Shown here: in pieces, positions 7,396 to 63,231 of the stretch
Position numbering within the stretch: position 1 is the first letter of the stretch
How the letters are laid out: each line of letters starts with the position of its first letter
Assembly: GCA_022799355.1 (NCBI GenBank)
Contig: JAAWOG010000002.1
Location: forward strand, 41,816 to 105,815
Length of the DNA: 64,000 nucleotides
From: Lachnospiraceae bacterium
GTDB taxonomy: Bacteria > Bacillota > Clostridia > Lachnospirales > Lachnospiraceae
Direction of reading: 5' to 3'
Made by a program: the position numbers and the translations under genes
Notes under the pieces: model-generated
Database searches by the model: none
The model's input: only the letters and a program-made list of their open reading frames with translations
Told to the model about the DNA's origin: nothing

Positions 7396-7475
7396 CTGAA
7401 AATGTTTGAGAAGCAATCCTGCGGCAACTCAAATTATCGCTTTACCATACATCATCCCTCGTAATGCATGATCTT

Positions 7476-7632
7476 ACCCGAACAGGCAGGTCTTCTGACT
7501 AAGGCATCTTTGCACAGAGCCGCCTTCCCGGTTTTCCGGTGGCATATCGGCCTGCACTCCACCCATACAGCGGCGTGACCGTGAAGCGTAACTTACTTCC
7601 CTATTCTCCCTTGCGGGCACCTGTTCTTATGA
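7476..7632 (-). ncRNA. Cobalamin riboswitch
   Basis: Minus strand: ACAGGTGCCCGCAAGGGAGAATAGGGAAG...CACGCCGCTGTA...AGTCAGAAGACCTGCCTGTT, with the conserved cobalamin-riboswitch blocks. Confidence 0.9.
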
Positions 7633-7690
7633 AACCGTATCATATGATAAATTATTTTATAATAAAATTCAAGTTATTTTGAAGATCCTT

Positions 7691-36366: not shown

Positions 36367-37839
36367 ATGAATACATCGATAGTAATGCTGACAGCTATAT
36401 TTTTTCCCATACTTCTCGGAGCGGTCCTTCTGCTTTTGCCGGAATTTTCCGAAAGAAACCGGCTGCTTGCCGTGACGGGGGCAGGGCTTGTGATTACCGG
36501 CATCCTTGCGGTGTGCGCGCTGGGAGGCGGCGGGGAGATGCTTTTATTCAGCCTGGGGGATAAAATGGAAATCTTTTTCCGGCCGGATGATCTGGGAAGA
36601 ATTTTTGCCGTTATCGTGACGATCGTGTGGATACTGGCAGGTTTTTATTCCTTTGAATACATGAAGCATGAAAAAGAGGAGAAACGGTATTTCGGTTTTT
36701 ATCTGATGGCATTTGGTGTGCTGCTGGCATTGGATTTTGCGGGCAATATCATAACCTTCTACCTGTTTTATGAACTGATGACGCTGCTCTCCATGCCCCT
36801 TGTACTGCATTCTAAGACGAAAGAGGCAATTATGGGCGGCCTGAAATATCTGTTCTATTCTCTGTGCGGCGCCTATATGGTTCTTCTGGGCATATATTTT
36901 TTGTACAAATATGCGGATACTTTAAACTTTACGGCAGGAGGGACGCTGAACAGGGAACTGGCGGCGGGAAATGAAAAAGTGCTGCTTGTTATTGTATTTT
37001 TTATGATACTGGGTTTTGGTGTAAAAGCGGGCATGTTTCCGATGCATGCATGGCTCCCCACCGCCCATCCGGTGGCACCTGCGCCGGCAAGCGCGGTTCT
37101 TTCCGGGCTGATCGTAAAGGCGGGCGTACTTGGTGTTATCCGCACGGTATATTTTTTATTCGGGAAATCTTTTATCAAAGGCACCTGGGTACAGACGGCA
37201 TGGCTGATCCTGGTCCTGATTACGATTTTTATGGGCTCCATGCTGGCATACAGGGAAAAAGTGATGAAAAAAAGGCTTGCCTATTCCACGGTCAGCCAGG
37301 TTTCTTATATTCTGTTCGGACTTGCGCTGCTGGAACCGTCCGCAATGACGGGCGCCCTGCTTCATGTGGTATTTCACGCCTTTATCAAAGTTACCCTGTT
37401 CTTATCCGCCGGGGCAATCATTTATAAGACGGGAAAGACAAATGTAGATGAGATGACAGGAATCGGGAAGGAGATGCCGGTTACGATCTGGTGTTATACC
37501 TTCGCTTCTCTGGCACTGATTGGTATCCCGCCTGCCAGCGGCTTTATCAGTAAATGGTATCTTGCCACGGGTGCCCTTGAGTCAGGCACCGGCATTTTTA
37601 CCTGGCTCGGTCCCGTTGTCCTGCTGATATCCGCCCTGTTGACCGCGGGCTATCTGCTCCCTGTGACAATCAAAGGCTTCCTGCCCGGTGCGGATTTCGA
37701 TTATAAAAACCTGCAGAAGAAAGAGCCAAACTTTTGGATGCTGATACCACTGATTATTTTTGCGGCGCTTTCCATATTCCTCGGCATCTTTCCGAATCCG
37801 CTGACGGAGTATATAAAGGCGATTGTTTATTCTTTATAG
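36367..37839 (+). CDS. Proton-conducting antiporter-like subunit, paralog 2
   Basis: VKAGMFPMHAWLPTAHPVAPAPASAVLSGLIVKAGV; KKRLAYSTVSQVSYILFG. Confidence 0.9.
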   Translation: MNTSIVMLTAIFFPILLGAVLLLLPEFSERNRLLAVTGAGLVITGILAVCALGGGGEMLLFSLGDKMEIFFRPDDLGRIFAVIVTIVWILAGFYSFEYMKHEKEEKRYFGFYLMAFGVLLALDFAGNIITFYLFYELMTLLSMPLVLHSKTKEAIMGGLKYLFYSLCGAYMVLLGIYFLYKYADTLNFTAGGTLNRELAAGNEKVLLVIVFFMILGFGVKAGMFPMHAWLPTAHPVAPAPASAVLSGLIVKAGVLGVIRTVYFLFGKSFIKGTWVQTAWLILVLITIFMGSMLAYREKVMKKRLAYSTVSQVSYILFGLALLEPSAMTGALLHVVFHAFIKVTLFLSAGAIIYKTGKTNVDEMTGIGKEMPVTIWCYTFASLALIGIPPASGFISKWYLATGALESGTGIFTWLGPVVLLISALLTAGYLLPVTIKGFLPGADFDYKNLQKKEPNFWMLIPLIIFAALSIFLGIFPNPLTEYIKAIVYSL

Positions 37840-37911
37840 AAAATACAAAACGGTTTATTTTGTCACAATACAGCCCGGCGAGGCGGACTGATTTCATTTC
37901 GGAGAATTACC

Positions 37912-39387
37912 ATGAGTGAATACTGGATTTTAGCAGCAATCCTGCTTCCGATAACCGGAGGAATAGTAACCCCGTTTATCCCTTTTAAAAACAGAAAAAT
38001 AATGATGGTCTATCTGGAAACCGTTATGGCAGTGACTTCCGTCATCGTATGGAAACTGGTCCTGAACGGAACGACGGAAGTATTCCATGTGATCCATTTT
38101 GTAGAAGAGTTGTCAATCTCTTTCAAAATAGATGGTATGTCCATGGTTTTTGCGGGACTGGTATCGCTGCTCTGGCCCCTGGCGATTCTGTATTCCTTTG
38201 AATATATGGAGAGGGAAGAGCGGGAAAAAATATTTTTCATGTTTTACAGCATCACCTACGGGATTACGCTGGGTATCGCGTTTGCGTCGGATCTTTTGTC
38301 GATGTATTTCTTCTATGAACTTCTGACGCTCTGTACGGTGCCGCTTGTGCTGCATACGCTGAAACGGGAAGCGGTCCTGGCATCGAGGAAATATCTGTAT
38401 TATTCCATCGGCGGTGCGGCTTTTGCGATGATAGGGCTGGTGGTTGTGATCATTTATGGGGTGACCTGCGAATTTCAGCCCGGCGGTGTTCTGGATATGG
38501 CGCTGATCGGGGACAGGAGAGATCTGCTGCTCTGGGTATATCTGCTGGCTTTTATGGGATTTGGAGTGAAGGCGGCGATATGGCCTGTGAGTTCCTGGCT
38601 GCCGGATGCGGGTGTGGCGCCGACGCCGGTGACAGCGCTTTTGCACGCGGTTGCGGTTGTAAAGGCCGGTGTTTTCGCAATGATCAGGCTGACCTATTAC
38701 AGCTTCGGGACTTCTTTCCTGAGGGGAACCTGGGTACAGAACGTGGTGATGGGCGTTGCGATGTTCACGATCCTATACGGCTGCAGTATGGCGCTGAAGG
38801 AGACGCATCTGAAAAGAAGGCTGGCTTATTCCACCGTCAGCAATCTTTCCTATGTGATTTTCGGGATCACAATCATGACACCTCTCGGACTGGTCGGGGC
38901 GCTGTGTCATATGGTATGCCATGCGGTGATGAAGATCAATGCGTTTTTCTGTGCGGGCGCTTTTATGCAGAATACAGGAAGAAGTTATGTGTATGAGATG
39001 GACGGCATCGGAAGAAAAATGCCGGTTGTGTTTGGCTGTTTTACGATATCCTCTCTGGGACTGATGGGCGTACCGGGACTTGCCGGTTTTATCAGCAAGT
39101 GGAATCTGGCATCGGCTGCCGTGGAGAGCGGCAATATACAGGCGTATTTCGGTATCGGCTGTCTTTTGGCTTCCGCGCTGCTGACGGCGCTCTATATGAT
39201 GAATACCGTGATCTACGCCTTTTTTCCGGGGAAGGGTTTTGATGAAAAGCCGCTGGAAGGTGTAAGAGATCCGGGATGGCGGATGTGTGTGCCGCTGTTG
39301 ACCTTTGCGGTAAGTACCGTGCTGTTGGGAATTTTTTCAGGACCGCTGATTGGGTTTTTCCGGGATATAGCGGCAGGGGTGTATTGA
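37912..39387 (+). CDS. Proton-conducting antiporter-like subunit, paralog 3
   Basis: VKAAIWPVSSWLPDAGVAPTPVTALLHAVAVVKAGVF; LKRRLAYSTVSNLSYVIFG. Confidence 0.9.
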   Translation: MSEYWILAAILLPITGGIVTPFIPFKNRKIMMVYLETVMAVTSVIVWKLVLNGTTEVFHVIHFVEELSISFKIDGMSMVFAGLVSLLWPLAILYSFEYMEREEREKIFFMFYSITYGITLGIAFASDLLSMYFFYELLTLCTVPLVLHTLKREAVLASRKYLYYSIGGAAFAMIGLVVVIIYGVTCEFQPGGVLDMALIGDRRDLLLWVYLLAFMGFGVKAAIWPVSSWLPDAGVAPTPVTALLHAVAVVKAGVFAMIRLTYYSFGTSFLRGTWVQNVVMGVAMFTILYGCSMALKETHLKRRLAYSTVSNLSYVIFGITIMTPLGLVGALCHMVCHAVMKINAFFCAGAFMQNTGRSYVYEMDGIGRKMPVVFGCFTISSLGLMGVPGLAGFISKWNLASAAVESGNIQAYFGIGCLLASALLTALYMMNTVIYAFFPGKGFDEKPLEGVRDPGWRMCVPLLTFAVSTVLLGIFSGPLIGFFRDIAAGVY

Positions 39388-39398
39388 GGGAGGTATCC

Positions 39399-41573
39399 AT
39401 GGTCAGTTTTTATGTGTGCGGTCTTGTTTTTATGCCGATGGCGGGGGCGTTGTTGTCCTATGGGACAGGAAAAAAAGATAAGAAAGCCAGGGATTATTTT
39501 GTCGCCGGGGTGACGGTACTGGAATTTGTGCTGGCGGTACTTTTGCTGTTTCGGTATACATCGGGCAGTATGACAGAGAATATGACAAAGCTGTCAGAAA
39601 TATGCGGTATGGGGCTGAAATTTTCGGTAGATGGGTTTCGGGCTGTGTATGTCTGTATTGCGGCCTTTATGTGGATGGGAACCGCCCTGTTTTCCGTGGA
39701 ATACTTTGGACATTACAGGAACAGAAACCGCTATTATCTGTTTCAGCTTATTACGCTGGGGGCGACGGAGGCGATCTTTTTGTCGGCTGATCTGTATACG
39801 ACGTTTGTATTTTTTGAGATCATGTCCTTTGCCTCTTATGTCTGGGTAGCCCAGGATGAGAGGACACAGTCACTGCGGGCGGCAGGTACGTATCTGGCAG
39901 TGGCAGTGATCGGCGGACTGGTGATGCTGATGGGACTGTTTCTTTTGTATCATCAGGCGGGAACGTTGGAAATCGATAAGCTTTATGAGGCGTGCAGAGG
40001 GAAGGACGTCTATGCGGCGGCGCTCTGTATGCTGGTGGGATTTGGCGCCAAGGCGGGGATGTTTCCGCTGCATATCTGGCTGCCGAAGGCTCATCCGGTG
40101 GCGCCTGCGCCGGCAAGCGCTCTTTTGTCCGGTATTTTGACGAAAACCGGAATTTTCGGCATACTTGTGATCAGTTGTAAGATCTTCCTGCACAACGGGA
40201 TCTGGGGTACTTTTATTCTGATGCTGGGTGTGCTGACGATGACGGCAGGTGCGGTATTGGCGCTGTTTTCCATAGACTTTAAGAGAACCCTTGCCTGTTC
40301 CTCGGTTTCCCAGATCGGTTTTATCTTGGTAGGGATCGGAATGCAGGGACTGCTTGGAGAGGAAAACCTGCTGGCAGTGCGGGGAAGTTTCCTGCATATG
40401 GTGAATCATTCTCTGTTTAAACTGGTATTGTTTATGACGGCGGGTGTTATTTATATGAATCTGCATAAACTGGATTTAAACGAGATCAGAGGGTTTGGAC
40501 GGAAAAAACCGCTGCTTGCTTTTATCTATCTGATGGGAGCGCTGGGAATCGGCGGTATGCCTCTCTGGAGCGGCTATATCAGCAAGACGCTGCTGCATGA
40601 GAGCATTGTGGAATATACCGAAATACTGGCGGAACATCCGGGGAGCGCCGTTTTTTTCTCCGCAGGCGGCATGAAAGCGATAGAATGGGCGTTTCTGATC
40701 AGCGGCGGTTTGACCGTGGCGTATATGACGAAACTGTTTGTGGCGGTTTTTGTGGAACGAAACGCAGATGCCGCGGTGCAGGAGAGGTATGATGCACGGA
40801 AGGTTTATATGAATCCGCTCAGCGCGGCGGTTTTGACGGCGGCAAGTATTCTGTTTCCGGTAATGGGGCTGTTTTCCGGACTTACGATGGATAGACTGGC
40901 GGATCTGGGACAGGGCTTTATGGGGGCTGCGGAAGCCGGCGGAAAAGTAGCATACTTTAGTTTTGGAAACTTAAAAGGAGGCGCAACGTCCATTTTGATC
41001 GGGGCACTGCTCTATGTTGTGGTGGGACGGGGCTGGATGTTAAAACGGGCGGAACCTGAAAAAGATAAGGCCGGCAGTATATATCTGAACAGATGGCCGA
41101 AGCTTCTGGATCTGGAGGATTATCTTTACAGGCCTATCCTGCTGTTGATTCTGCCGACGGTCTGCGGCTGTATCTGCGGTATTTTAGATAAAATAACAAA
41201 TGTTACATCTAAATTTATGATTATTACGGGCGGAGCCGCCGCAGGATTTTTGAATACGATAACGGATGCCATGGTAGTTATTTTGCGAAAGACCATTTAC
41301 AGGGACCATACAAAGAAGGGCGAGCTGAAAGAAGGAAACGGGCTGACCTATGTTCTGGGCAGTGTGATAAATGCCATATGCGGACTTTTAAACCATACGT
41401 TGTGGCGCGGCAATCCGAGAGAGATCGATTACAGGCATAAACTGGCACTGGAGTACTGGAGCCGCAGAGAGACCATTTATATGATTACCAGGAGCCTTTC
41501 CTATGGACTGCTTTTGTTTTCCGTCGGGCTTTGTGCGACACTGATTTATTTGCTGGTGGGAACTCTGAAATAA
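39399..41573 (+). CDS. Proton-conducting antiporter-like subunit with C-terminal extension, paralog 4
   Basis: AKAGMFPLHIWLPKAHPVAPAPASALLSGILTKTGIF; FKRTLACSSVSQIGFILVGIG; start trimmed to ATG 39399. Confidence 0.9.
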   Translation: MVSFYVCGLVFMPMAGALLSYGTGKKDKKARDYFVAGVTVLEFVLAVLLLFRYTSGSMTENMTKLSEICGMGLKFSVDGFRAVYVCIAAFMWMGTALFSVEYFGHYRNRNRYYLFQLITLGATEAIFLSADLYTTFVFFEIMSFASYVWVAQDERTQSLRAAGTYLAVAVIGGLVMLMGLFLLYHQAGTLEIDKLYEACRGKDVYAAALCMLVGFGAKAGMFPLHIWLPKAHPVAPAPASALLSGILTKTGIFGILVISCKIFLHNGIWGTFILMLGVLTMTAGAVLALFSIDFKRTLACSSVSQIGFILVGIGMQGLLGEENLLAVRGSFLHMVNHSLFKLVLFMTAGVIYMNLHKLDLNEIRGFGRKKPLLAFIYLMGALGIGGMPLWSGYISKTLLHESIVEYTEILAEHPGSAVFFSAGGMKAIEWAFLISGGLTVAYMTKLFVAVFVERNADAAVQERYDARKVYMNPLSAAVLTAASILFPVMGLFSGLTMDRLADLGQGFMGAAEAGGKVAYFSFGNLKGGATSILIGALLYVVVGRGWMLKRAEPEKDKAGSIYLNRWPKLLDLEDYLYRPILLLILPTVCGCICGILDKITNVTSKFMIITGGAAAGFLNTITDAMVVILRKTIYRDHTKKGELKEGNGLTYVLGSVINAICGLLNHTLWRGNPREIDYRHKLALEYWSRRETIYMITRSLSYGLLLFSVGLCATLIYLLVGTLK

Positions 41574-50457: not shown

Positions 50458-51996
50458 ATGAAACATATAATGCGCCTTATCTGCGGCATGGGGGTTTATC
50501 TGTTCCTTTTTTGCTTTGTTGTTGTCTATTCCCTGTATGCCCCGGAGGGCTATATCCAGATCGCCACTCATAAGTATCTGTTTTTCAGAAAGCTTTGCCT
50601 GATCACGGCGGGGGTGATGATCCCGCTTATCATGTTATATTATATCATACCGCCCATTGGGAAAAGCTGGCGGAAGATGATTAGGCATATTTCGACAACG
50701 GATATTTATATGCTTCTTTTTTTGCTTATCAATATTATTTCTTTTCTCGGTACTAAGTTTCCGGAAGAAGCGCTCTGGGGGACCAGCGGCTGGTATATGG
50801 GGTTTGCCGTACATGTATTTTTTGTGGGAATTTATTTTTTTATCTCCAGGTTTTATGACGGCAGGATCGATGTGCTGCCTTTTCTTATGGCGGCAGCGTT
50901 TCTTATATTCTTATGGGGGCTTTTGAACCGGTTTTCGATCTATCCGATTGATATGCAGTATGAGAATGAACAGTTTATTTCCAGTATGGGGAATATTAAC
51001 TGGTTTTGCGGCTTCTGGTCGATATTTTTCGTGACAGGCGTGGTGGTGTATGTCCTGTGCGAAAAACGATGGATGCGGATTTATTCCGGTATTTTCAGTA
51101 TAACGGCGCTGGGACTTGGCGCGGTGGAGGGGAGTGATTCGGCGTTTCTCTCCATGGCGGTTGTTTTTTTCTTTCTCTTTTTCCTTTCTTTTCAAAAGAC
51201 GGAATATATGAAAAGATGGCTGGAACTGGGTATATTTTACTGCGCATCGTGTCAGGTAATGCGGGTGATTGTAAAGCTGGATAAAGAGAGCCTGAGTATG
51301 GATACCACTACCATGTGGATCATGTTGGGGAATCTGACATTGGTTGTGCTTATCATATTATGTGCTCTGCGGATTTTGGCAGGGAGAGGAGATAAACACT
51401 CAGAGGGAGAGTGGATTTGGAAATGGAAATGGTTAAGATATGCGGCGGCAGGGTTCGTCATCGGGGCAGCCATAATATATCTGATATTGCTTGTGCTCAA
51501 TACAAGGGCGCCGGGAAGTCTGGGGTTTTTGTCAAAGTATTCGATATTTTTATTTGACGGACACTGGGGAAGCGCCCGGGGAACCACCTGGCGTGACGGA
51601 TTTGCAATTTATCAGTCTTTCTCCTGGCGGGAGCGGCTTTTCGGGGCAGGGCAGGACTGTTTTGCCATATATGCTTATCAGGTTCCGGAATTATCTGCAA
51701 GACTTGTTGAGGAATGGCCCGGTTCGAGGCTGACAAATGCCCATAATGAATGCATCACATATCTGGTTAATATAGGAATTTTCGGGTTGCTTGCTTTTAT
51801 CGGCATTTTTTGGAGCAGCTTTAAACGGCTTCTGGAAAAAGCGAAAAAAGAACCTCTGTGTTATATGTATGCGGCGATTTTACTGTCCTATTTTATACAT
51901 AATCAGTTCAGCTTTTCACAGATATTGAGTACACCCTATATTTTTATGATGCTGGGGCTGGGGGAGAATCTGATGAGGAGAGAGGCGAAGTCATAA
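50458..51996 (+). CDS. O-antigen ligase/Wzy-like polytopic membrane protein
   Basis: 512 aa, many TM segments; RGTTWRDGFAIYQSFSWRERLFGAG and NAHNECITYLVNIGIFGLLAF typical of the Wzy_C region. Confidence 0.82.
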   Translation: MKHIMRLICGMGVYLFLFCFVVVYSLYAPEGYIQIATHKYLFFRKLCLITAGVMIPLIMLYYIIPPIGKSWRKMIRHISTTDIYMLLFLLINIISFLGTKFPEEALWGTSGWYMGFAVHVFFVGIYFFISRFYDGRIDVLPFLMAAAFLIFLWGLLNRFSIYPIDMQYENEQFISSMGNINWFCGFWSIFFVTGVVVYVLCEKRWMRIYSGIFSITALGLGAVEGSDSAFLSMAVVFFFLFFLSFQKTEYMKRWLELGIFYCASCQVMRVIVKLDKESLSMDTTTMWIMLGNLTLVVLIILCALRILAGRGDKHSEGEWIWKWKWLRYAAAGFVIGAAIIYLILLVLNTRAPGSLGFLSKYSIFLFDGHWGSARGTTWRDGFAIYQSFSWRERLFGAGQDCFAIYAYQVPELSARLVEEWPGSRLTNAHNECITYLVNIGIFGLLAFIGIFWSSFKRLLEKAKKEPLCYMYAAILLSYFIHNQFSFSQILSTPYIFMMLGLGENLMRREAKS

Positions 51997-52038: not shown

Positions 52039-52067
52039 TTGTCAATCTGCGGATATTCTGATAAAAT
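52039..52067 (+). promoter_or_regulatory. Candidate sigma-A promoter upstream of the giant prepilin operon
   Basis: TTGTCA-N17-TAAAAT. Confidence 0.55.
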
Positions 52068-52117
52068 GTAGAAAATTTGCAGTAAGAGTTTTAGTTGGTT
52101 GGGTAATTAAATATGTG

Positions 52118-52163
52118 ATATCCCCTCAAAGTAAAATGATGCATTGGGGGGGTATTTTTTTAT
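52118..52163 (+). terminator. Strong intrinsic terminator in the leader of the giant prepilin gene
   Basis: ATATCCCCTCAA / TTGGGGGGGTAT 12-bp stem (with GU pairs), then TTTTTTATT. Confidence 0.8.
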
Positions 52164-52305
52164 TCCTTAAACTGACTGACTTTTTGCGGATTTTGCGCAA
52201 AAAGGGGCTAAATTTGCGCTGGTGCACCAAGTGTTTAGACTATGTGCTAATATATAAAAATATTATGTATATATCTAAAAATTTTCAAATAAAAGGTAAA
52301 ATCTG

Positions 52306-55300
52306 TTGAGGAAAATAGATAGAGAAAAGAAAGATGGATTTACATTAATAGAACTGATTGTCACCCTGGCGGTCAGCGCTCTGGTACTGTCCGTATCCGT
52401 GGCAGGTATTGTGGCATGGGTACACCATGCGGATTTTGTAAGAAACGAAAACTATGCGGAGACAATCTATTATGCGGCGCAGGCTGAGCTCACCAGATAC
52501 CGCAGCAACGGGCAGCTCGGAGAACTGGAAGAATATGTGATGAAAAACAATCAGGTGGTACCGGTGGAGGATATCGTGGTAACACCTGCCATCGACCGGG
52601 AAGCATATCAAAACAGACTGTACTATTTAAAAAAGGATGCGGGCAGCATCGATGAAGGAAATCCTCTGGGGGGGTTGCTGGCACCCTATATTTACGACGG
52701 CAGCATTATGGATGGTGTCGTATGTGTGGAATTTGATCCTGGTGACGGAACGGTATATTCGGTCAGCTACAGTGATGAAAATAATACGTTTACATATGAA
52801 AAAGCGCCGGGTGAGGAGGAGGAAAAGGAAGTATCTCTTCTGAACAGAGAACAGGATGTGCGCAAAAAAAATCGTGTGGGCTACTACAGTACCGATCTCT
52901 CCGAAGGAGCGCCGGATGCGGTGGGTAAGACCAGACTGGATAAGGTACAGCTGATCAATGAGGAGCAGCTTTATCTGAAATGGTCATTGCCTGAGAGATA
53001 TAAAAATATCAGGGGCTTTCTGACCTATACTCTGGAAATTTATGAGAAGGGAAAAGATGCGCCGGATTATATTTTTGCGGTAAAAGGGAGCAGGCTTAAG
53101 ACCAAAGATACGGAAGATATCCCGGAATATATCGTTGAATGTACGGAAGGAAAAACAGGAGAAGTTTATGCGTTTACGGCTTATATGGATGCGGATGGGG
53201 CGATGTATCTTGTACTGGATGCCATCGACTACGGTGCTGCGCCGGAAAAGATAGCGGCAGCCACCGAGCCTGGCACGGGAGAATGGCATTTTGACACATC
53301 CGGTCTTAAAAATTCCGCCAGCATTTTACAGCTTTTTCCGGAGCCGGAAGACATTTATATTCGGGTACAGGCGCAGGGGATGCCCTATAAAACCAGCGCC
53401 TGGAAGCAGAGCAATACATCCAATACCATGTTTGCCTCCATGAAAGAAGAGACAGGAACGGACTCTTATACTATCGAAAATGCGAGGCATCTGTATAATA
53501 TCCGCTATCGGGAAAAAGAGAGCGGTCTACTTGGCATGTCAAAAAACATATCTTACAGACAGAGCACCGATATCACCTGGCTGAAAACGGCTGAAAAACT
53601 GTATCACAGCATAGAGGAAGGCGCCGGAATGAAGCAGGCGCCCCTGCAGGCGGAAGATCTGTGTGTGCCCGGGGGATTTACGGAAAGTGTTCCCTGTTTT
53701 CTGCCTGTCCCTTCTCTGGGAGTGAACTCCATATTGGAAGTATCGGGATCACGGAAATATGAATTGAAAGATTTTGTATTGTATCAGGAAACACCCGGGA
53801 CGCAGGAGCCGGAAACAAACGAAAACGGACAAAGGGCGCAGGCGGTAAAACCGCTGGGACTGGTGGCGGAAAACCAGGGCAAAATACAGGGGCTTACCGT
53901 CAGCAATATTTATGTTGAGGGCGTCAGAAATGTGGGGGCGGTCTGCGGGATCAACAGCGGAAAAGGAAATTTAAATAAAATCTCCGTAACCGGCAGGGTA
54001 ATCGGAGAGGAAAATACGGGCGGTATTGTGGGATTGGATCAGGCCGGAGGAGCAGAGGGCTTTGGCGGCGATCCGGCTAAGGGCGTTTATACCGGTCTGA
54101 TTAATTATGCGGAAGTAAGCGGCAGCAGAGGTAAAACAGGAGGCATTATCGGAAGTGTTGCTGCGGATACGAAGGTATTCCTTTGTGAAAATTATGGTGC
54201 TGTAAAAGGGACGGAGAAATATACGGCTTATATCGGCGGGATCACCGGATATAACAGGGGTATAATTGAAGACTGCACCAGTGCGCCGAAGGATAAGCCA
54301 GTTATGAAAAACGGGGAACTGGACAAAGAGAGCCTTAAGGGTATCTTTGTGGGCGGCATCGCCGGCTATAACAACAAAGGAATCATTAAAAACAGCGGAA
54401 CGGAAAAAGAGAGTAAAGAGAAAAACGGCAGCGGAAAGGACGCTTATATCATAGGCTATCGCTATGTAGGCGGTATCGTGGGCTATAACAATGAAACGGT
54501 GGAGGGCGATGATAGCGGACTGGTATTTCTTTCCACGGCAAGAACCAACAAAGCGCAGGTAATCGGCTATGACTATGTGGGCGGTATCGTTGGGGCGAAT
54601 GCGCTGCTGGAAGGGGCGGAACTGGAGAGGGATGATATTCCGGATGCGGCGGAACTTGAGAGATGCAGTGTCAGAAAAGTATATTCGGAAAAGATGCTGG
54701 TAAAGAACTGGATCAATGAAGGGATCATTCATGCGGCAGGCTCTTATGCCGGCGGAATAGCGGGATATAATGCCGGTGTTCTGCAAAGCTGTACGACAAA
54801 GATCAATACTTCTTCCGGCGGCGGCTCATCGCTTCTTGCACAGGCTGTTCTGTACGGAAGTGAGGCTTCCTATGTGGGCGGTATTACCGGCTGTAATCTG
54901 GGCTGGATACATAATGAGAATACGGTGGACGGCGATGCGGTAATTCAGGTAAACAGCGTTGTGGCAGGTAAAAAGTATGTTGGCGGCATTGCGGGATATA
55001 ACGGGACGACAGTGGATGAGAGCGGCGTTTTGACGGATAAAAGCGGTATGATCCGCAACTATGCGCTGGCGGGAGGCTATATTTCCGGGGAATGCTTTGC
55101 GGGCGGCTATGTGGGGCTGAATACAACGGAAAAACTGTTGGGGGAGGAGGCACTTCTGCTCTCGAAACCCAACGAGGTAACTGCGGATTATTTTGCGGGC
55201 GGCGTAATGGGCGCTCTGATTCTGGTGCCGGGAAGCGACGTCAGAGTGAACTGCGGGACGGACAATTTCTTCGGAAAGGTGGAGGCGAAAAATGCTTTTG

Positions 55301-58300
55301 CCGGCGGCTATGTGGCATATACGCAGCTTCTGGCATCGGGCGGAAGTGATGCGGCGGATGCCAGAGCGGAGGCTTTGTATCAGGTGTTAGCCGAAGAAGA
55401 GATATCCGGGAATATTGATATAAACAGCGGCAGGCGGCAGGAGGCGCTGCAGACGCTGGCGGAAAAAGTGCTGGACGATGGAAGAAATACAAACAACGAC
55501 AGCGCCTTTCGGCTTAACTTTATCTATGGCGGGAATCAGGGAGAAAACCGTTTTGCATCGATCAAGGCACCCATATTTGCGGGCGGCATTATCGGTTTCA
55601 ACAGTTGGAATACAACGCTGAACCTGCAGGGGATCAGCAATAAAGTACAGGTAGAGGCGACGGAGAGTGTGGTTTATCCTTTTATCAGCAAAGAGCAGGG
55701 AGAAACTTTTTCCTTTGCGGGCGGCGTGATCGGGCTGGTTACGCCGAAGGCGACGGTTGATAACTGTAAGAATATCAACGGCGGCGGTGTGACCGGAAAA
55801 GGAACTTTTACGGGTGGTATCGCGGAGGTAAATCTGGGAGAGATCAGAAACTGCACGGCAGGTTCCATAGGCGGTCAGAGTAATTACGGCGGCATCGCGG
55901 GATTAAATACCAATGAAGGGCGGATTGCCGGTTGCACACTGGATGGCCAGATCAGCGGAGAAAGCTATCTGGGCGGTATTGTTGTGCGCAATGAGAGTAT
56001 TATTGAGGGCTGCACGGTAAAAAACAGTGCCGGAGCGGGCGAGAGTGCGGTGATCGGCAGCGGAGAGTATATCGGGGGTATTGCAGCGGTCAGCCGTCTG
56101 AAAAAAGTGGGAGATACGGAGGCGGTATACCCGAATCAGATCAAAGGCTGCCTGGTAGAGGCAAATATCGGCGCTCAGAATATGGGGCAATATGTAGGCG
56201 GACTGCTGGGAAAATATGAAGGCGGTGAACTCGGCGGAAGTTCTACCGGGGAACAGATTAAGATTTACGGAAACGATTATGTAGGCGGCATCGCCGGATC
56301 GGTGTGCAGCGAACTTCGGGGAGAGAAGGCGGAGCAGATCTCAAATCACGGGGAGGTCATTGCGGCAAATGCCGCGGGCGGTATCGCCGGTGATCTTTCG
56401 GAAAATGCTGCGATTATATATTGCGCCAACAGCGGGAAGGTAAGTTCCACCCAGGGGAAAGCGGGCGGTATTGTGCCCGAAGTGGGAGAGAGCAATGCGG
56501 TAAGGCAGTGTACAAACAGCGGAAACATTTCAGCCGTGCGGGAGATGGCGGGAGGCATCACGGCAGAAAATTACGGAAGAATAGAGGCATGTATAACGTC
56601 AGGCAATAACAGTGCCGCGCTTATCGTGGAAGGTGTAAATGCCGTAGGAGGTATTGCCGGGGATAACAGGAGTGAGATAGAGAACTGTACTCTGGCAGGG
56701 AATGTGACCGTCAGAAATGTAAATGACGGGGTAAAAGGCAGAGAGATTGGCGGGATAGCAGGCAGAAATGTAGGGCGGATCGTCAACAGAGACCGGGATT
56801 TTGCAGAGAAAACGGATAAAGGAATGCCTGAAATTATTTCCCGGGGGGACGGGAATTACCTTGGCGGTGTGGCAGGCATCAATATATCGGACGGAAAAGA
56901 TACCGGGATTATCGAGTCCGACGGGAAAAGATATGCGATGGCTTCCGTGGCGCTTGGCCAGGGGCAGAGCGGAACCGTGGGGGGCGTAGTCGGCGTAAAT
57001 GCCGGGACGGTTCGGAAGCTTGTCTTTTCGGGAAGCGTTGCCGGGACGGAGGGCAGCCAATATGGTACGGGAGGCATTGCCGGCAGAAATAATCTTCCGG
57101 AGGCGGACAGAGCAGGTGTGATTGAGGATTGTTTTCTGTCAGGGGGCAGTGTCAGCGCTTCGGGAGCGGCGGGATTCGGCGGATTTACGGAACGCTTTGC
57201 CGGCGTTTATGTGGGCGGTATCTGCGGCATCAATCCGGAAAAGGGAACGATCAAAGGCTGCGGGCTGAAAGACGGATCAAAGGTTTCCGGGAATAACGGA
57301 TATGTAGGCGGAATCACCGGGTATAATTTTGGGGAATTGATTGATAATGTTTCGGATGCGGCGAGCACGGCAACTGTTTTCAATAGTGGGGGCAGTTGTG
57401 TTATGGGAGGCATAGCCGGGTATAATGGTGCGGACGGCAGACTGGAGAATTGTGCAACGGGTAAGTGGACTGTGAATAACCGGATGACGGGCGGCGCGGA
57501 AAAATTCCCGACCGGCGGCGTAATCGGCTGCAACCAGTCGGTCAATGATCAGAAAGGGCTGATCAACCGTGCGGCGGTGTCCGGGGACTGGATGACCGGG
57601 GGAATTATCGGGCTGCAGCAGACGGAACGGCGTGGCGGCTTTACGATAGAAGGCTGTGAAAATCATGGGGAGATTACCGGGAGAATCCGTACTGCCGGCG
57701 GCATTATTTCAGACTGGCGTTATCAGAACGGCAGAGTGCGGGAATGTATTAATTATGGAAAAATTTCTATTGAAGCAGGTGACGGCAGGAATGGCGCCGG
57801 CGGTATTATAGGGACCGGATGGTGGGGAGGAGAAGTTTCCATTACCATTGAAAGATGCGGTAATGAAGGAGAGATTTTTCATCACACGTCAGGAAACAAG
57901 GACCAGGGAAAAGCGGCAGGTATTTTTGGGGCTTATAACAGTAACAGCGCCCCGTTAACACTGACAATCATGGATTGTTATAATGCAGGCGTTATACAGA
58001 ATACGGGTGCAAATTCAAGTGCCGGCATTTTCGGAGGGAACGAAAGTGCGGGGACCATCCATGCAAGGATCGTTCGCTGCATTAACTATGGGAAGGGAAC
58101 AAACTCGGGCAAAACATTTGCAGGTATTGCATATAACAAGGCAAGCAATACGACATGGAAAATAGATCAGTGCCTGAATATCGGTGAGTGCAGTGATAAA
58201 CAAAATCCGATCATTCTGCCTGCCGGCACATGTACCGGTGAAAACTATTATTTTTCCAATCCCGCGACAGGCGCTTTTACGGCAACATCCAATCAGGCGC

Positions 58301-61300
58301 AACGGGTAGCAAGAAGGCAGGGAAACTCCTTTAAGGCAGAGAATTCTGCAAGGTTTGACACAACTACCCAGCGTTTATACTTTAGCGGGAATACCGACAA
58401 ATATCTACAGTTTCAAAATGTAACAGGATCTGCCGCAAGTATTGCGGATTTAAAAAAGAATTTCAGCGCGCCGAATCAGACATATGCGCTGCTGCTCTAC
58501 GGCAGGGATAATGTAACTAAACTGAACCCGCCCACATCGGTTGTACTGAGTGAAGAGGGAGGGATTTATACCGTAAGTTATGAGGCTGATCAGGATACGG
58601 CGTTTTGTACGGAATCTTATGAACTGGTAATTTACGGAGAGAAAGAAAACGGAGATAAGACAGAGCTTAAAAGAGAACAGATAACCGATACCAGTAAAAA
58701 TACATGGAAAATCAGTGAAGGGGAACTGTTTGGAGCGGATAAAATAAGTTATGTGGAAATATGGGCTGAAATGCAGGCAAAAACCAGTGCAAAAACCAGT
58801 AGTGGTACGAAGATTGCTGATTCTGATTGGAAAAAGTCCGATCCGCTTGCGATAAAGAGTAAACTTCCGATGCCTGAGATTTGTTTTGAGGTGGTTAAGG
58901 GAAATGATACGAATCGTCTTTCTGGTTACTGGGTGCTGAATAATGCGGGAGATTATGCTTCTTACAACAATTGGGAAGTTGTTATAGAGGGTGCCGGCAA
59001 CATCGGGGGAAATCTTCATGCCGGCAGGGTAAAGTCCGGGCTGTGTGATTACGGAACACAATATAAAACGATCACAGCATATGCATATACTCCCGACGGA
59101 AGCAGCAGAAGATCGGATGATTTTAACGAATTATTCAGACTGTTCAGTGAAAACGCAACGTTGAAAGCGGAACGTGTCAATAATGATAACGGTGAATTGA
59201 TCGGACTGAAAGCCGGAGAATTGAGCTATAAATTCCGCATGAGGCAGGCAAAGAGCAATTATGACCATATTACATACCGGGCAGATTTTCTGTTAAACGG
59301 AACGGAGATGGGCTATGGCATAGTGGAACTGCCTTTGGAGCAGGGGCAGGCGGATTGTACGATAGACCTCTCCGCACTGACACAGGATCAGATAAGGCAA
59401 ATCATAGACGGAATCAATAACGGTTCACCCAGGGTAGAGATCCGCTATTATCCGCTGGAACTTGATTCTGTTAAATATTATACGACAAACGCGGATGGAA
59501 CCATAAGTCGGACGGTTTTGGAAGCGGGAAACGGCGCTTTTCAAAACAGCCTGACATACTTTGACTTAAGCGGTCTAAAGGATAAATACCGGATGCATCC
59601 GGTGCCGGTGCCGGGAAGTACGATCGAAATGAACGATACTGACGGAACCATAACTTATAGGCTGCATTGGGATGCGGCGGCTGATATCGGAGGGAGTTAT
59701 AATGCCGCCCATTACCAAAATGCAAGATATAAGATCACGGTAACGGGAAAAGATACGCTGGCAAATACTCAGGTTGTACTGTACCAGCAAGAAGTGACTG
59801 CGGCGGGAGAGAGAGACAGAACCGTATTGCTGACAGAGGATAACTGGAAATATCAGGAACTCCTGTTGACGGTGGAACGGATTGGAAGTACGGGAAATCC
59901 GGGCTATATCGGGGCGGTATCGGAGAAGACATATCCGATACCAATGCGTCTGAATGCCGTGCCGAAACCTACGGCAAATCTGCCGGATCAAAATAACCTG
60001 ATCTATCAGGTGAACTGGCTGCCCTCCGTGGAGAAAGATGCGGCAAAAGGCTATCGGATTCTTATAAAAGGCAAAAATAAGGATGGGACGGCGATACCGG
60101 AAACATCGGTTGATGTGGACGGAGTGGATACGACGGGTATCGAGATAGATTTAACAAAATATCCTGTCCTTGATAATGCGGAGACAATAGAATTTTCGAT
60201 TGTTGTATTGAGCGGGGATTCCTCAAAATATCTGGATTCCAGACCAAGTCCGGGCGTTGTCTGCGAGATACCTGAGAGACTGCCTGAGCCGGAAGGGAAG
60301 AGGACGCTTCTGCTGGAAGGAACGGAGGTTGATGAGAATATTCCTTTAGAGACAGAAAAGTTTGCGCAGTTTGAACTGAAACAGACGGATCAAAATGCGT
60401 CTGCGGAGGATGCGGTCTATGAAGTGGAATATTTTATTACGGACGCGGATGAAATACCGGCGGACTGGGATAAAAAAACGGGAGCAATGCCGGAGCAGGA
60501 TGAGGAGAATGGAATTTATATCAGCACCGGTCCGGTCAGGATGACGGGTAATTTACAGGAGGCGTCTTATCTGCTGCAGGATTTGGATGCGGATCAGGCG
60601 GGCAGGAGGCTCTGGTTTAGAATCCGGGGCGTCTCCAATAATAAGGTCAGCTCGATCTGGACGGTATGGGAGAGCCTGAAACTGCCGAAGGCAACGCTGA
60701 AAACGGTAGAAATGGAAGAACAGGCGGCGGAAAACAAGTGGTCCTATACCATAACGCAGAACGGAGTAACTTCCGGAGACAGCCATGAAGTGTCCATCAA
60801 TCAGCCGAAGCTGCGGTTTGGTATTGTGGACTTTGCGGCAGGCTATGAGGTTCGGCTGAAAGAGGCTGACAGAACGGTGGAAAAAGAGGACGGAACACAG
60901 GAAGTTATAACGGGAGGAGAGCATGCTTATACCCTGCATGAAAATCCGGATGCGGATGATGACATGCCGCTGGTTCTGATGGAGGGCTCTTCAACGCTGA
61001 CGCCTGAAGCAATCGATACGGATGCTGATATAACGACTTATGCCTTCGCCCTGTATGATATCGGGCACACGTTCCGGGTGGAAAGCAGCGGAACAACGTA
61101 TATCTATGAAATTACAACAACGGCGAAGCTGTTTTACAGTGTAAAAGACGGAGAGGTTCAGGAAATCTGGCTGGAACTGCCGGAAGGAATGTGTCTTGAC
61201 AGTGAGGGCAATGAGATCGGAAACAGGGAGTTTGTGGCTACCGCAGCGGTGGATGTTACGGTAATACCGCCGGTGGCGCCGGATGATGATCCGGATGATC

Positions 61301-61662
61301 CCAGATATGTTGTGGAAAATCTGATCAGATGGCAGAGAGTGGAAGATCCGGATGATCCGTCAAAGAACACTACTGAAATAAAGGAAATAAAGGTGTCGGA
61401 AGCGGCGCACAGTATAAGAGCGGTACAGGGATATTTCCTGGAAGAGGTGGATGCGGAAGAAGCCGGTGAGGATTTGCCGGAATTGTTCAGAGTGGAACAG
61501 ATGCAGATAAAAGAACCGGAGAGTGCCGAAGATTTGGATGAAACAGAAAAGCCGGAAGACGAAACCGGGGAGGAGGAATCTGCGGCCGGAGAAAATGATG
61601 CGGATGTGTCCGGCAATGATATCAGGCGGGAGACCGGGGATAAACAGGGAAAAGAGCAGTAA
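52306..61662 (+). CDS. Giant prepilin-type protein (3118 aa): class III signal, GLUG-repeat beta-helix-like region, FN3-like modules, acidic tail (TTG start)
   Basis: MRKIDREKKDG^FTLIELIVTLAVSALVLSVSVAGIVAWV at the N-terminus; dozens of GGI(A/V/T)GYN / GG(I/V)xGxN units; single uninterrupted ORF. Confidence 0.92.
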   Translation: MRKIDREKKDGFTLIELIVTLAVSALVLSVSVAGIVAWVHHADFVRNENYAETIYYAAQAELTRYRSNGQLGELEEYVMKNNQVVPVEDIVVTPAIDREAYQNRLYYLKKDAGSIDEGNPLGGLLAPYIYDGSIMDGVVCVEFDPGDGTVYSVSYSDENNTFTYEKAPGEEEEKEVSLLNREQDVRKKNRVGYYSTDLSEGAPDAVGKTRLDKVQLINEEQLYLKWSLPERYKNIRGFLTYTLEIYEKGKDAPDYIFAVKGSRLKTKDTEDIPEYIVECTEGKTGEVYAFTAYMDADGAMYLVLDAIDYGAAPEKIAAATEPGTGEWHFDTSGLKNSASILQLFPEPEDIYIRVQAQGMPYKTSAWKQSNTSNTMFASMKEETGTDSYTIENARHLYNIRYREKESGLLGMSKNISYRQSTDITWLKTAEKLYHSIEEGAGMKQAPLQAEDLCVPGGFTESVPCFLPVPSLGVNSILEVSGSRKYELKDFVLYQETPGTQEPETNENGQRAQAVKPLGLVAENQGKIQGLTVSNIYVEGVRNVGAVCGINSGKGNLNKISVTGRVIGEENTGGIVGLDQAGGAEGFGGDPAKGVYTGLINYAEVSGSRGKTGGIIGSVAADTKVFLCENYGAVKGTEKYTAYIGGITGYNRGIIEDCTSAPKDKPVMKNGELDKESLKGIFVGGIAGYNNKGIIKNSGTEKESKEKNGSGKDAYIIGYRYVGGIVGYNNETVEGDDSGLVFLSTARTNKAQVIGYDYVGGIVGANALLEGAELERDDIPDAAELERCSVRKVYSEKMLVKNWINEGIIHAAGSYAGGIAGYNAGVLQSCTTKINTSSGGGSSLLAQAVLYGSEASYVGGITGCNLGWIHNENTVDGDAVIQVNSVVAGKKYVGGIAGYNGTTVDESGVLTDKSGMIRNYALAGGYISGECFAGGYVGLNTTEKLLGEEALLLSKPNEVTADYFAGGVMGALILVPGSDVRVNCGTDNFFGKVEAKNAFAGGYVAYTQLLASGGSDAADARAEALYQVLAEEEISGNIDINSGRRQEALQTLAEKVLDDGRNTNNDSAFRLNFIYGGNQGENRFASIKAPIFAGGIIGFNSWNTTLNLQGISNKVQVEATESVVYPFISKEQGETFSFAGGVIGLVTPKATVDNCKNINGGGVTGKGTFTGGIAEVNLGEIRNCTAGSIGGQSNYGGIAGLNTNEGRIAGCTLDGQISGESYLGGIVVRNESIIEGCTVKNSAGAGESAVIGSGEYIGGIAAVSRLKKVGDTEAVYPNQIKGCLVEANIGAQNMGQYVGGLLGKYEGGELGGSSTGEQIKIYGNDYVGGIAGSVCSELRGEKAEQISNHGEVIAANAAGGIAGDLSENAAIIYCANSGKVSSTQGKAGGIVPEVGESNAVRQCTNSGNISAVREMAGGITAENYGRIEACITSGNNSAALIVEGVNAVGGIAGDNRSEIENCTLAGNVTVRNVNDGVKGREIGGIAGRNVGRIVNRDRDFAEKTDKGMPEIISRGDGNYLGGVAGINISDGKDTGIIESDGKRYAMASVALGQGQSGTVGGVVGVNAGTVRKLVFSGSVAGTEGSQYGTGGIAGRNNLPEADRAGVIEDCFLSGGSVSASGAAGFGGFTERFAGVYVGGICGINPEKGTIKGCGLKDGSKVSGNNGYVGGITGYNFGELIDNVSDAASTATVFNSGGSCVMGGIAGYNGADGRLENCATGKWTVNNRMTGGAEKFPTGGVIGCNQSVNDQKGLINRAAVSGDWMTGGIIGLQQTERRGGFTIEGCENHGEITGRIRTAGGIISDWRYQNGRVRECINYGKISIEAGDGRNGAGGIIGTGWWGGEVSITIERCGNEGEIFHHTSGNKDQGKAAGIFGAYNSNSAPLTLTIMDCYNAGVIQNTGANSSAGIFGGNESAGTIHARIVRCINYGKGTNSGKTFAGIAYNKASNTTWKIDQCLNIGECSDKQNPIILPAGTCTGENYYFSNPATGAFTATSNQAQRVARRQGNSFKAENSARFDTTTQRLYFSGNTDKYLQFQNVTGSAASIADLKKNFSAPNQTYALLLYGRDNVTKLNPPTSVVLSEEGGIYTVSYEADQDTAFCTESYELVIYGEKENGDKTELKREQITDTSKNTWKISEGELFGADKISYVEIWAEMQAKTSAKTSSGTKIADSDWKKSDPLAIKSKLPMPEICFEVVKGNDTNRLSGYWVLNNAGDYASYNNWEVVIEGAGNIGGNLHAGRVKSGLCDYGTQYKTITAYAYTPDGSSRRSDDFNELFRLFSENATLKAERVNNDNGELIGLKAGELSYKFRMRQAKSNYDHITYRADFLLNGTEMGYGIVELPLEQGQADCTIDLSALTQDQIRQIIDGINNGSPRVEIRYYPLELDSVKYYTTNADGTISRTVLEAGNGAFQNSLTYFDLSGLKDKYRMHPVPVPGSTIEMNDTDGTITYRLHWDAAADIGGSYNAAHYQNARYKITVTGKDTLANTQVVLYQQEVTAAGERDRTVLLTEDNWKYQELLLTVERIGSTGNPGYIGAVSEKTYPIPMRLNAVPKPTANLPDQNNLIYQVNWLPSVEKDAAKGYRILIKGKNKDGTAIPETSVDVDGVDTTGIEIDLTKYPVLDNAETIEFSIVVLSGDSSKYLDSRPSPGVVCEIPERLPEPEGKRTLLLEGTEVDENIPLETEKFAQFELKQTDQNASAEDAVYEVEYFITDADEIPADWDKKTGAMPEQDEENGIYISTGPVRMTGNLQEASYLLQDLDADQAGRRLWFRIRGVSNNKVSSIWTVWESLKLPKATLKTVEMEEQAAENKWSYTITQNGVTSGDSHEVSINQPKLRFGIVDFAAGYEVRLKEADRTVEKEDGTQEVITGGEHAYTLHENPDADDDMPLVLMEGSSTLTPEAIDTDADITTYAFALYDIGHTFRVESSGTTYIYEITTTAKLFYSVKDGEVQEIWLELPEGMCLDSEGNEIGNREFVATAAVDVTVIPPVAPDDDPDDPRYVVENLIRWQRVEDPDDPSKNTTEIKEIKVSEAAHSIRAVQGYFLEEVDAEEAGEDLPELFRVEQMQIKEPESAEDLDETEKPEDETGEEESAAGENDADVSGNDIRRETGDKQGKEQ

Positions 61663-62244: not shown

Positions 62245-62543
62245 TGAGAAATCAAAAAGGAACTTCTCTGGTATCTGTGATCGTGTCTTTTGCGGTGCTG
62301 ATGATCGTGCTGTTGCTGCTGCAGATTTCGATTACGGCATCGGGGCGGTATGCGGCGCGGGCTGATGAAGTCTGGCAGAAGGCGGTGGATGCGGAAAATA
62401 AGTACGTCAACGGTGACGGTTCTAAAAAAGCAGATATGGGGCTCACCATGAAATCCGATAAGGGGAATACGGAATTTTGGGGAAGCATGGAAATATGGAA
62501 GACGGATGATGGGGAGGCGGATATTTATTATATCAAGAATTAA
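62241..62543 (+). CDS. Minor pilin-like protein (PilV/GspI-like)
   Basis: MMRNQKG^TSLVSVIVSFAVLMIVLLLLQISI; overlaps upstream stop by 4 bp. Confidence 0.7.
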   Translation: MMRNQKGTSLVSVIVSFAVLMIVLLLLQISITASGRYAARADEVWQKAVDAENKYVNGDGSKKADMGLTMKSDKGNTEFWGSMEIWKTDDGEADIYYIKN

Positions 62544-62565
62544 TCAGGAGGCAGCGGGAAAGGAG

Positions 62566-63231
62566 GTGAGGACAGATACGAAAAGGAAAACAGACAGCAG
62601 AGGGATGACACTCGTGGAAATGGTAGTTACCTTTGCGGTGGCCGCAATTTTTATGGCGGCAGCGGCAGCGCTGGTACTTCCGGCAACAAAGATGACGTTA
62701 CGCATAAAAGGGATGAACCGGGTGCATGATGATGCCGCTATTATTATGGAAACCATTGTGAATGAATTGAGCTATGCAGATGGCTATATAGGAGAAGATG
62801 GATCGGCACAGGTACCGGCGATAACGCTCAAAGAACCATTTGCCGGGGAAACGGGTGATCCATATAATGGCTATTACCAGAAGGCGGAATACAGTGATAA
62901 AGGCGGCAATCCCGCAATAATACGCACAGGAGCGGAGGATGACGGTGAAAGTAAAGACCGGCTCCAGATCATCTATGCGGCGATAGGTTCAGCAGAGGAT
63001 GAGGAAGGTATTGTCCGCGAGGAGATCAAATGGGAATACGGAAAAGGACTGTATCGGGATAACCGGATTCGGCTGGGATTTCAGAAAAAGGCGGATGCGG
63101 CAGGGAATAAGGAGAAAAATATTATTACCATCCAGCTTACGGTGACAGATCCGGTCTCGGGTTACTCCTATACACAAAAGTCAGATGTACGCTGTATGAA
63201 CGTTACGGCAGACAGAATAAAAGAGGATTGA
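62566..63231 (+). CDS. Minor prepilin (PilW/GspJ-like); GTG start, or ATG at 62506
   Basis: VRTDTKRKTDSRG^MTLVEMVVTFAVAAIFMAAAAALVLPA: class III signal. Confidence 0.82.
   Translation: MRTDTKRKTDSRGMTLVEMVVTFAVAAIFMAAAAALVLPATKMTLRIKGMNRVHDDAAIIMETIVNELSYADGYIGEDGSAQVPAITLKEPFAGETGDPYNGYYQKAEYSDKGGNPAIIRTGAEDDGESKDRLQIIYAAIGSAEDEEGIVREEIKWEYGKGLYRDNRIRLGFQKKADAAGNKEKNIITIQLTVTDPVSGYSYTQKSDVRCMNVTADRIKED

Follow-up and report, generated by a model that had tools for sequence, protein, structure and literature searches.

Pilins are generally treated as small proteins. Analysis of a 64,000-nucleotide stretch (the window) of the genome of a gut bacterium from the family Lachnospiraceae revealed a gene for a protein that begins like a type IV pilin and is about 20 times the usual size of a type IV pilus subunit. 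This locus raises the question of what such a giant is built from, which machine would present it, and where on the cell it would act. An earlier note on this DNA had proposed a prepilin with repeats of GGIxGYN type, displayed by a type IV pilus-like machine instead of being anchored by sortase. The checks suggested there, namely, structure prediction of the N-terminal and repeat segments, profile searches for N_methyl and GLUG, and a search for pilB, pilC, and pilD, were carried out. Feature coordinates are collected in Table 1.

Reading frame and architecture of the giant protein

The uninterrupted 9.36-kb open reading frame (ORF) of the earlier note was confirmed as a single frame that starts with TTG and stays open through to its stop codon. 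The only possible start is TTG 52306 (or CTG 52303), 11 codons ahead of the mature N terminus (KKDG^FTLIELIVTLAVSALVL). AAAGG is located about 9 nt 5' of the TTG, and an in-frame TAA is positioned at 52297-52299. Because this stop codon lies directly 5' of the start, the prepilin signal and the repeats belong to one protein. The stop contradicts the possibility, named in the earlier note as one that would overturn its reading, that the pilin signal is not translated with the repeats, and misassignment of the start was ruled out.

The class III signal, with Gly-1 and Glu5 ahead of a hydrophobic stretch as in type IV prepilins, was recognized above the curated cut-offs by both N_methyl (23.8 bits versus 21.2, Pfam) and TIGR02532 (22.9 bits versus 16.3). 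An AlphaFold2 model of residues 1 to 1000, generated from 11 sequences (mean pLDDT, 74), showed an alpha1 helix and a pilin head, followed by an Ig/FN3-like stretch and then by a long beta-helix. In the model, alpha1 is a 55-residue helix and the strands of the head extend to about residue 177, with a pLDDT of about 58 to 84 for this block. The alpha1 profile matches PilE1 of Streptococcus sanguinis (8pfb) and other pilins in the PDB. Model and profile together thus give the long alpha1 and beta-sheet head of a type IV prepilin.

The cargo that follows comprises about 2,900 residues, Ig/FN3-like and beta-helical. Between residue 544 and about residue 1832, 31 G[GA]x.G units were counted, with a median spacing of 36.5 aa, versus a mean of 3.3 in shuffled copies. 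The Pfam family GLUG (PF07581) matched residues 561 to 1250 with 52.8 bits, above its gathering score, and was found in all seven sequences of the alignment; on the entire protein, its score of 13.5 was below the cut-off of 20.5. The modeled beta-helix has a pLDDT mostly near 90. The GLUG-like units and right-handed beta-helix described in the earlier note are therefore well founded (31 units, GLUG on the fragment, and the model), and a non-pilus domain is fused to a pilin module, as in modular pilins. Of its FN3-like modules, the fold was recovered and the family was not: the Pfam scan gave no FN3 match, whereas Foldseek found strings of FN3/Ig domains in the C-terminal model, which has moderate confidence only (mean pLDDT, 61). 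"FN3-like" accordingly denotes fold-level support only, and residues 1950 to 2999 match no credible Pfam family. The final 100 residues contain 32 D/E and 11 K/R, in line with the acidic C terminus described before. A sequence scan found neither LPXTG nor a hydrophobic C terminus or C-terminal membrane helix, which rules out sortase anchoring, as the earlier note had held. A phage origin was also rejected, since the first 560 residues gave no phage match.

Table 1. Features of the giant prepilin gene and its surroundings (positions in the window)
Feature	Positions	Strand	Basis
Strong hairpin (13 bp), then U run; terminator or attenuator	52117..52156	+	Fold z-score -5.3, sequence
Giant prepilin gene, 3118 aa, ~334 kDa, TTG start	52306..61662	+	ORF, sequence, N_methyl, TIGR02532
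Class III leader peptide MRKIDREKKDG, predicted PilD cleavage after G11	52306..52338	+	Sequence; N_methyl/TIGR02532
Pilin module: alpha1 helix (residues 14-68), beta-sheet head to ~residue 195	52339..52890	+	AlphaFold2 model; alpha1 profile; boundaries approximate
Beta-rich Ig/FN3-like stretch, residues ~213-380	52942..53445	+	Model secondary structure, weak Ig-fold matches; boundaries approximate
GLUG right-handed beta-helix, residues ~388-1960, begins with conserved NARHLYNIRY	53467..58185	+	Model, profiles; past residue 1000, repeat sequence only
Tandem FN3/Ig-like domains, residues ~2289-2779	59170..60642	+	AlphaFold2 and Foldseek; fold level only
Acidic C-terminal tail without sortase motif or transmembrane helix	61360..61659	+	Sequence
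K-like (GspK/PilX type) minor prepilin without Glu5, 186 aa	61684..62244	+	GspK model, E 1.7e-5, far under cut-off
I/V-like minor prepilin, 100 aa	62241..62543	+	Weak N_methyl and XpsI matches; conserved position
J/W-like minor prepilin, up to 241 aa; true start probably 3' of listed ATG	62506..63231	+	N_methyl, 27.3 bits
Major pilin, 143 aa	63340..63771	+	N_methyl, 39.8 bits
62-base contig end, shared only with end of contig C80	63939..64000	.	Sequence overlap

The pilus locus and its neighborhood

Four co-directional prepilin genes follow 3' of the giant in the order K-like, I-like, J-like, and major pilin. The GspK model scored 24.5 of 130 bits on the K-like protein and matched 7 of 14 homologues. 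Glu5 is absent from all 14 homologues, and the K subunit of the H-I-J-K tip complex likewise lacks Glu5. The curated GspK, GspI, and GspJ models stayed below their cut-offs, and the proteins are therefore called K-, I-, and J-like and not members of these families. Their assignment to H/I/J/K positions is putative and derives from gene order and weak profile matches.

The contig (C9) stops at the end of the window, and its last 62 bases occur only once elsewhere in the genome, at the end of C80. From the overlap onward, C80 carries a PD-(D/E)XK transposase-type gene (opposite strand), a gene for a 168-aa protein, and genes for PilD with its methylase domain, PilC, PilM, PilO, PilB with an MshEN domain, and PilT; PilM and PilO were called from their neighborhood and weak or absent Pfam matches. 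In a congener (G184), a single contig contains giant, giant, K, I, J, major pilin, transposase-type gene, PilC, PilM, PilO, PilB, and PilT. This contiguous locus has the same order and, with the unique overlap, supports a junction of C9 and C80. Across the junction, the components expected of a type IVa pilus locus are encoded, namely, the major pilin and PilB, PilC, PilM, PilN/O, PilD, and PilT. The link to a type IV pilus-like machine, proposed in the earlier note, is now strong, given the four adjoining prepilin genes, the Pil genes on the joining contig, and the family-wide co-occurrence reported below. Pfam scans found no PilY1 (PF05567) in the giant or in the genome, and a separate PilY1 tip protein was rejected.

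Several further genes were observed around these loci. The transposase-type gene (L012 1756-2652) is located between the major pilin and the assembly genes; it is also present in the congener, where PilD is missing at this site. Many of these loci also encode a conserved protein of 140 to 170 aa with one probable membrane helix and no Pfam family (L012 1019-1525 (-)), close to the major pilin, PilD, or PilC. Directly 5' of the pilus locus, an O-antigen-ligase-like membrane protein (window 50458-51996; Wzy_C just under its cut-off) could glycosylate pilins; no homologue was found among the relatives' loci examined, and a role as a conserved pilin glycosyltransferase was rejected. A Tad/Flp-type locus, equipped with small peptidases of its own, is present separately on C20. 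Elsewhere in the window, three successive proton-antiporter-type membrane proteins of the NuoL/Mrp type (36367-41573) suggest an ion-pumping complex, and a cobalamin riboswitch (91.5 bits) is located at 7468-7639 (-).

Relatives, co-occurrence, and regulation

A search with the first 576 residues of the giant revealed relatives in 36 of 200 Lachnospiraceae genomes, and a pattern scan of named genomes yielded 32 loci. Carriers include Lactonifactor longoviformis DSM 17459, Diplocloster agilis, Diplocloster modestus, Faecalicatena faecalis, and the complete genome CE91-St56; the pattern scan also found Neglectibacter timonensis and Anaerotruncus massiliensis, which we take to lie outside Lachnospiraceae. 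When the part of the protein that follows alpha1 was used as a profile, matches came from 34 of 297 Lachnospiraceae genomes, 7 of 240 across the class, and 3 of 299 across the phylum (own genome counted). Dozens of relatives carry such giants, many with intact ORFs similar in size and build to that of the window. Complete prepilin-bearing giants range from 1542 to 4537 aa. The largest frame seen here (G179:C19 (-), L065/L106), from a genome with about 7% contamination, has 7664 codons, a prepilin signal at its start, and 75 GG-type repeats.

The K, I, and J genes adjoin the giant in the majority of Lachnospiraceae loci, as they do in two further clostridial families, and the giant-K-I-J block occurs in two locus orders, either ahead of the major pilin or after PilT. 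In one relative (G002, L064 9665-13302), the minor pilins in the I and J slots, at 579 and 629 aa, are enlarged as well and contain Listeria-Bacteroides repeat domains. Among 297 Lachnospiraceae genomes, the giant was found in 29 of 35 with strong PilM and in 5 of the 262 others (Fisher p = 3e-29, relatedness uncorrected). Presence of the machine was defined by full-length PilM, scored at more than 140 bits with a profile of the PilM of this machine, a threshold set after a gap in the scores had been seen. In six machines, the profile found no giant: four of them encode just minor pilins of ordinary size (130 to 200 aa), another encodes a distant relative of the giant with 1242 aa, and the last is truncated or incomplete. 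These counts indicate that the machine does not need the giant and that the giant nearly always accompanies the machine.

The tandem giants of G184 (C36, L045/L072) are 89% identical in the pilin module, 45 to 60% identical around residues 1686 to 2341 (window numbering), and about 66 to 83% identical towards the C terminus. dS rises from about 0.28 to a peak of 1.07 in the divergent middle and then falls again, with an overall dN/dS of 0.36. Around residues 1686 to 1915, copy a resembles the window protein more closely than it does copy b. The pattern would fit cassette exchange or homogenization at the ends while distinct middles are kept.

In both Diplocloster species, a c-di-GMP-I riboswitch (79.7 and 79.9 bits versus a cut-off of 35) was found 5' of the giant, about 130 bases or more ahead of its start (L075 708-794 and L084 9560-9646). 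In some relatives, the giant is thus probably controlled by c-di-GMP. Among the loci scanned, only those of Diplocloster have this element; none was found in the window, and a riboswitch ahead of the window giant was rejected. The hairpin with its U run is located there instead, about 150 bases 5' of the giant start (z-score computed for window 52040-52180).

Proposed role and comparison with known systems

The giant is probably an oversized modular type IV pilin that is displayed, together with K, I, and J, at the tip of the pilus, where it would do the job of PilY1 in diderms. From these data we infer its tip position, its assembly into a pilus, and its role in adhesion. The K-I-J neighbors point to the tip. 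For the tip pilin ComZ of Thermus thermophilus, it was argued that no place but the tip can accommodate its beta-solenoid (PMC6561018), and by this reasoning a cargo of about 3,000 residues is unlikely to pack in a shaft. PilD would remove the leader, and through alpha1 the giant would join K, I, and J in the complex that primes the tip of a filament, which PilB would extend and PilT would retract under load. The beta-helix and FN3-like domains would form a stiff arm that projects from the tip and binds host, diet, or microbial ligands, and the giant would take the part that PilC/PilY1 plays in diderms.

A considerably less probable explanation is that of a membrane-tethered surface adhesin, the signal of which, cleaved or not, only inserts into the cytoplasmic membrane and never enters a filament, while the cargo spans the wall. 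The size of the giant is in keeping with this, as is the G126 relative (L057 959-5251), in which a plain membrane anchor replaces the class III signal ahead of the same alpha1-like stretch and no pil genes are nearby; because of this relative, the cargo can evidently work without a pilus. However, G126 is the only exception among 24 giants, in 23 of which the class III signal was recognized by pattern or by inspection, and Gly-1 and Glu5 are conserved in the others. The fixed slot by the K, I, and J genes and the co-occurrence with the machine also argue against a mere tether. It is improbable that the locus encodes a secretion pseudopilus resembling a type II secretion system, with the giant as its tip or exported substrate and not as an adhesin on long pili: K and I do resemble GspK and XpsI, but the lineage is monoderm, a PilT-like retraction ATPase is encoded beside PilB, and the major pilin is of the ordinary pilus type.

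Very little speaks for a surface enzyme that cuts glycoproteins or immunoglobulins. The best structural matches of the beta-helix are IgA1-protease-like (3n6z, 7uvk, and 6xja). Foldseek placed 3n6z, a putative IgA1 protease, first for the N-terminal model (E 1e-4), with two IgA1 proteases at weak E-values among ranks 2 to 5, and the sequence profile of the giant also finds 3n6z. Yet the structural match is the GLUG scaffold, Pfam scans gave no enzyme family, and the HEXXH motif occurs in 0 of 24 giants; without this zinc site, identity as an IgA1 protease (M26) was ruled out. That the giant ORF is an artefact of assembly or of start choice has a negligible chance, since nothing beyond the draft state of the assembly was found in its favor, a stop codon lies in frame just ahead of the start, and a type strain, a complete genome, and a congener all contain similarly built, uninterrupted ORFs, which rule out an assembly error.

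The reading of the giant as a modular tip pilin can be extended, tentatively, to a distinct type IV pilus subtype of gut clostridia. Here, a single long beta-helical/FN3-like tip arm would replace PilY1, exceed 7,600 residues in some lineages, and be diversified by recombination between tandem copies that share their ends and differ in the middle.

Modular pilins are a published class, and the giant lies at its extreme: the census of Raynaud et al. lists more than 1,200 proteins and 264 architectures, the most extreme multi-domain case having 860 residues and 12 repeat copies (PMC8179133). The exceptional size claimed in the earlier note stands at 3118 aa, but the protein is not unique, since such giants are shared by many Lachnospiraceae. 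New here are the size, the GLUG cargo, the fixed slot by the tip subunits, and the family-wide spread, which suggest that the giants of Lachnospiraceae and their relatives form an overlooked class of very large pilus-tip proteins. A literature search, with most subscription papers and bioRxiv outside its reach, found no paper describing giant prepilins in Lachnospiraceae, in agreement with the earlier note, which knew of no characterized example. PilFind, the pilin finder for Gram-positive bacteria, stops at 350 residues and would miss proteins this large (PMC3244431), and this limit may explain why the giants went unremarked. If they sit on pili, the giants set a new upper bound for the load lifted by a pilus machine through a Gram-positive wall and provide a concrete candidate for attachment of Lachnospiraceae in the gut; cultured carriers exist (L. 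longoviformis DSM 17459 and Diplocloster).

The closest known systems share parts of this architecture. The published model for S. sanguinis groups PilA, PilB, and PilC at the tip as a complex that has no PilY1 and whose effectors are the modular pilins (PMC9934059). Like PilB (vWA) and PilC (lectin) of this species, the giant grafts non-pilus domains onto a pilin module of a monoderm pilus (PMC8179133, PMC9934059), with small minor pilins in the same locus and no PilY1. Unlike PilB (about 50 kDa), it reaches 3118 aa, and relatives reach about 7,660 aa, with a GLUG beta-helix and an FN3-like string. ComZ likewise joins a beta-solenoid to a pilin domain; its solenoid measures about 380 residues and 60 A, whereas that of the giant is several times longer. 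ComZ has Gly at position 5 and is a DNA receptor, whereas the giant has Glu5 and a gene content that is not of a competence locus (PMC6561018). With the GLUG-repeat IgA1 proteases, the giant shares the beta-helix scaffold, but it has no protease motif and carries a prepilin signal instead of their usual surface anchor. It resembles sortase-anchored giant adhesins in size, repeats, FN3-like modules, and acidic tail and differs from them in lacking LPXTG and the C-terminal membrane helix. PilC/PilY1 proteins are the tip adhesins of diderm type IVa pili, on H-I-J-K minor pilins. PilY1 contains a beta-propeller and does not belong to the pilins, and PF05567 is missing from the genome of the giant; nevertheless, the giant would resemble PilC/PilY1 as a very large modular tip effector carried by minor pilins of this type.
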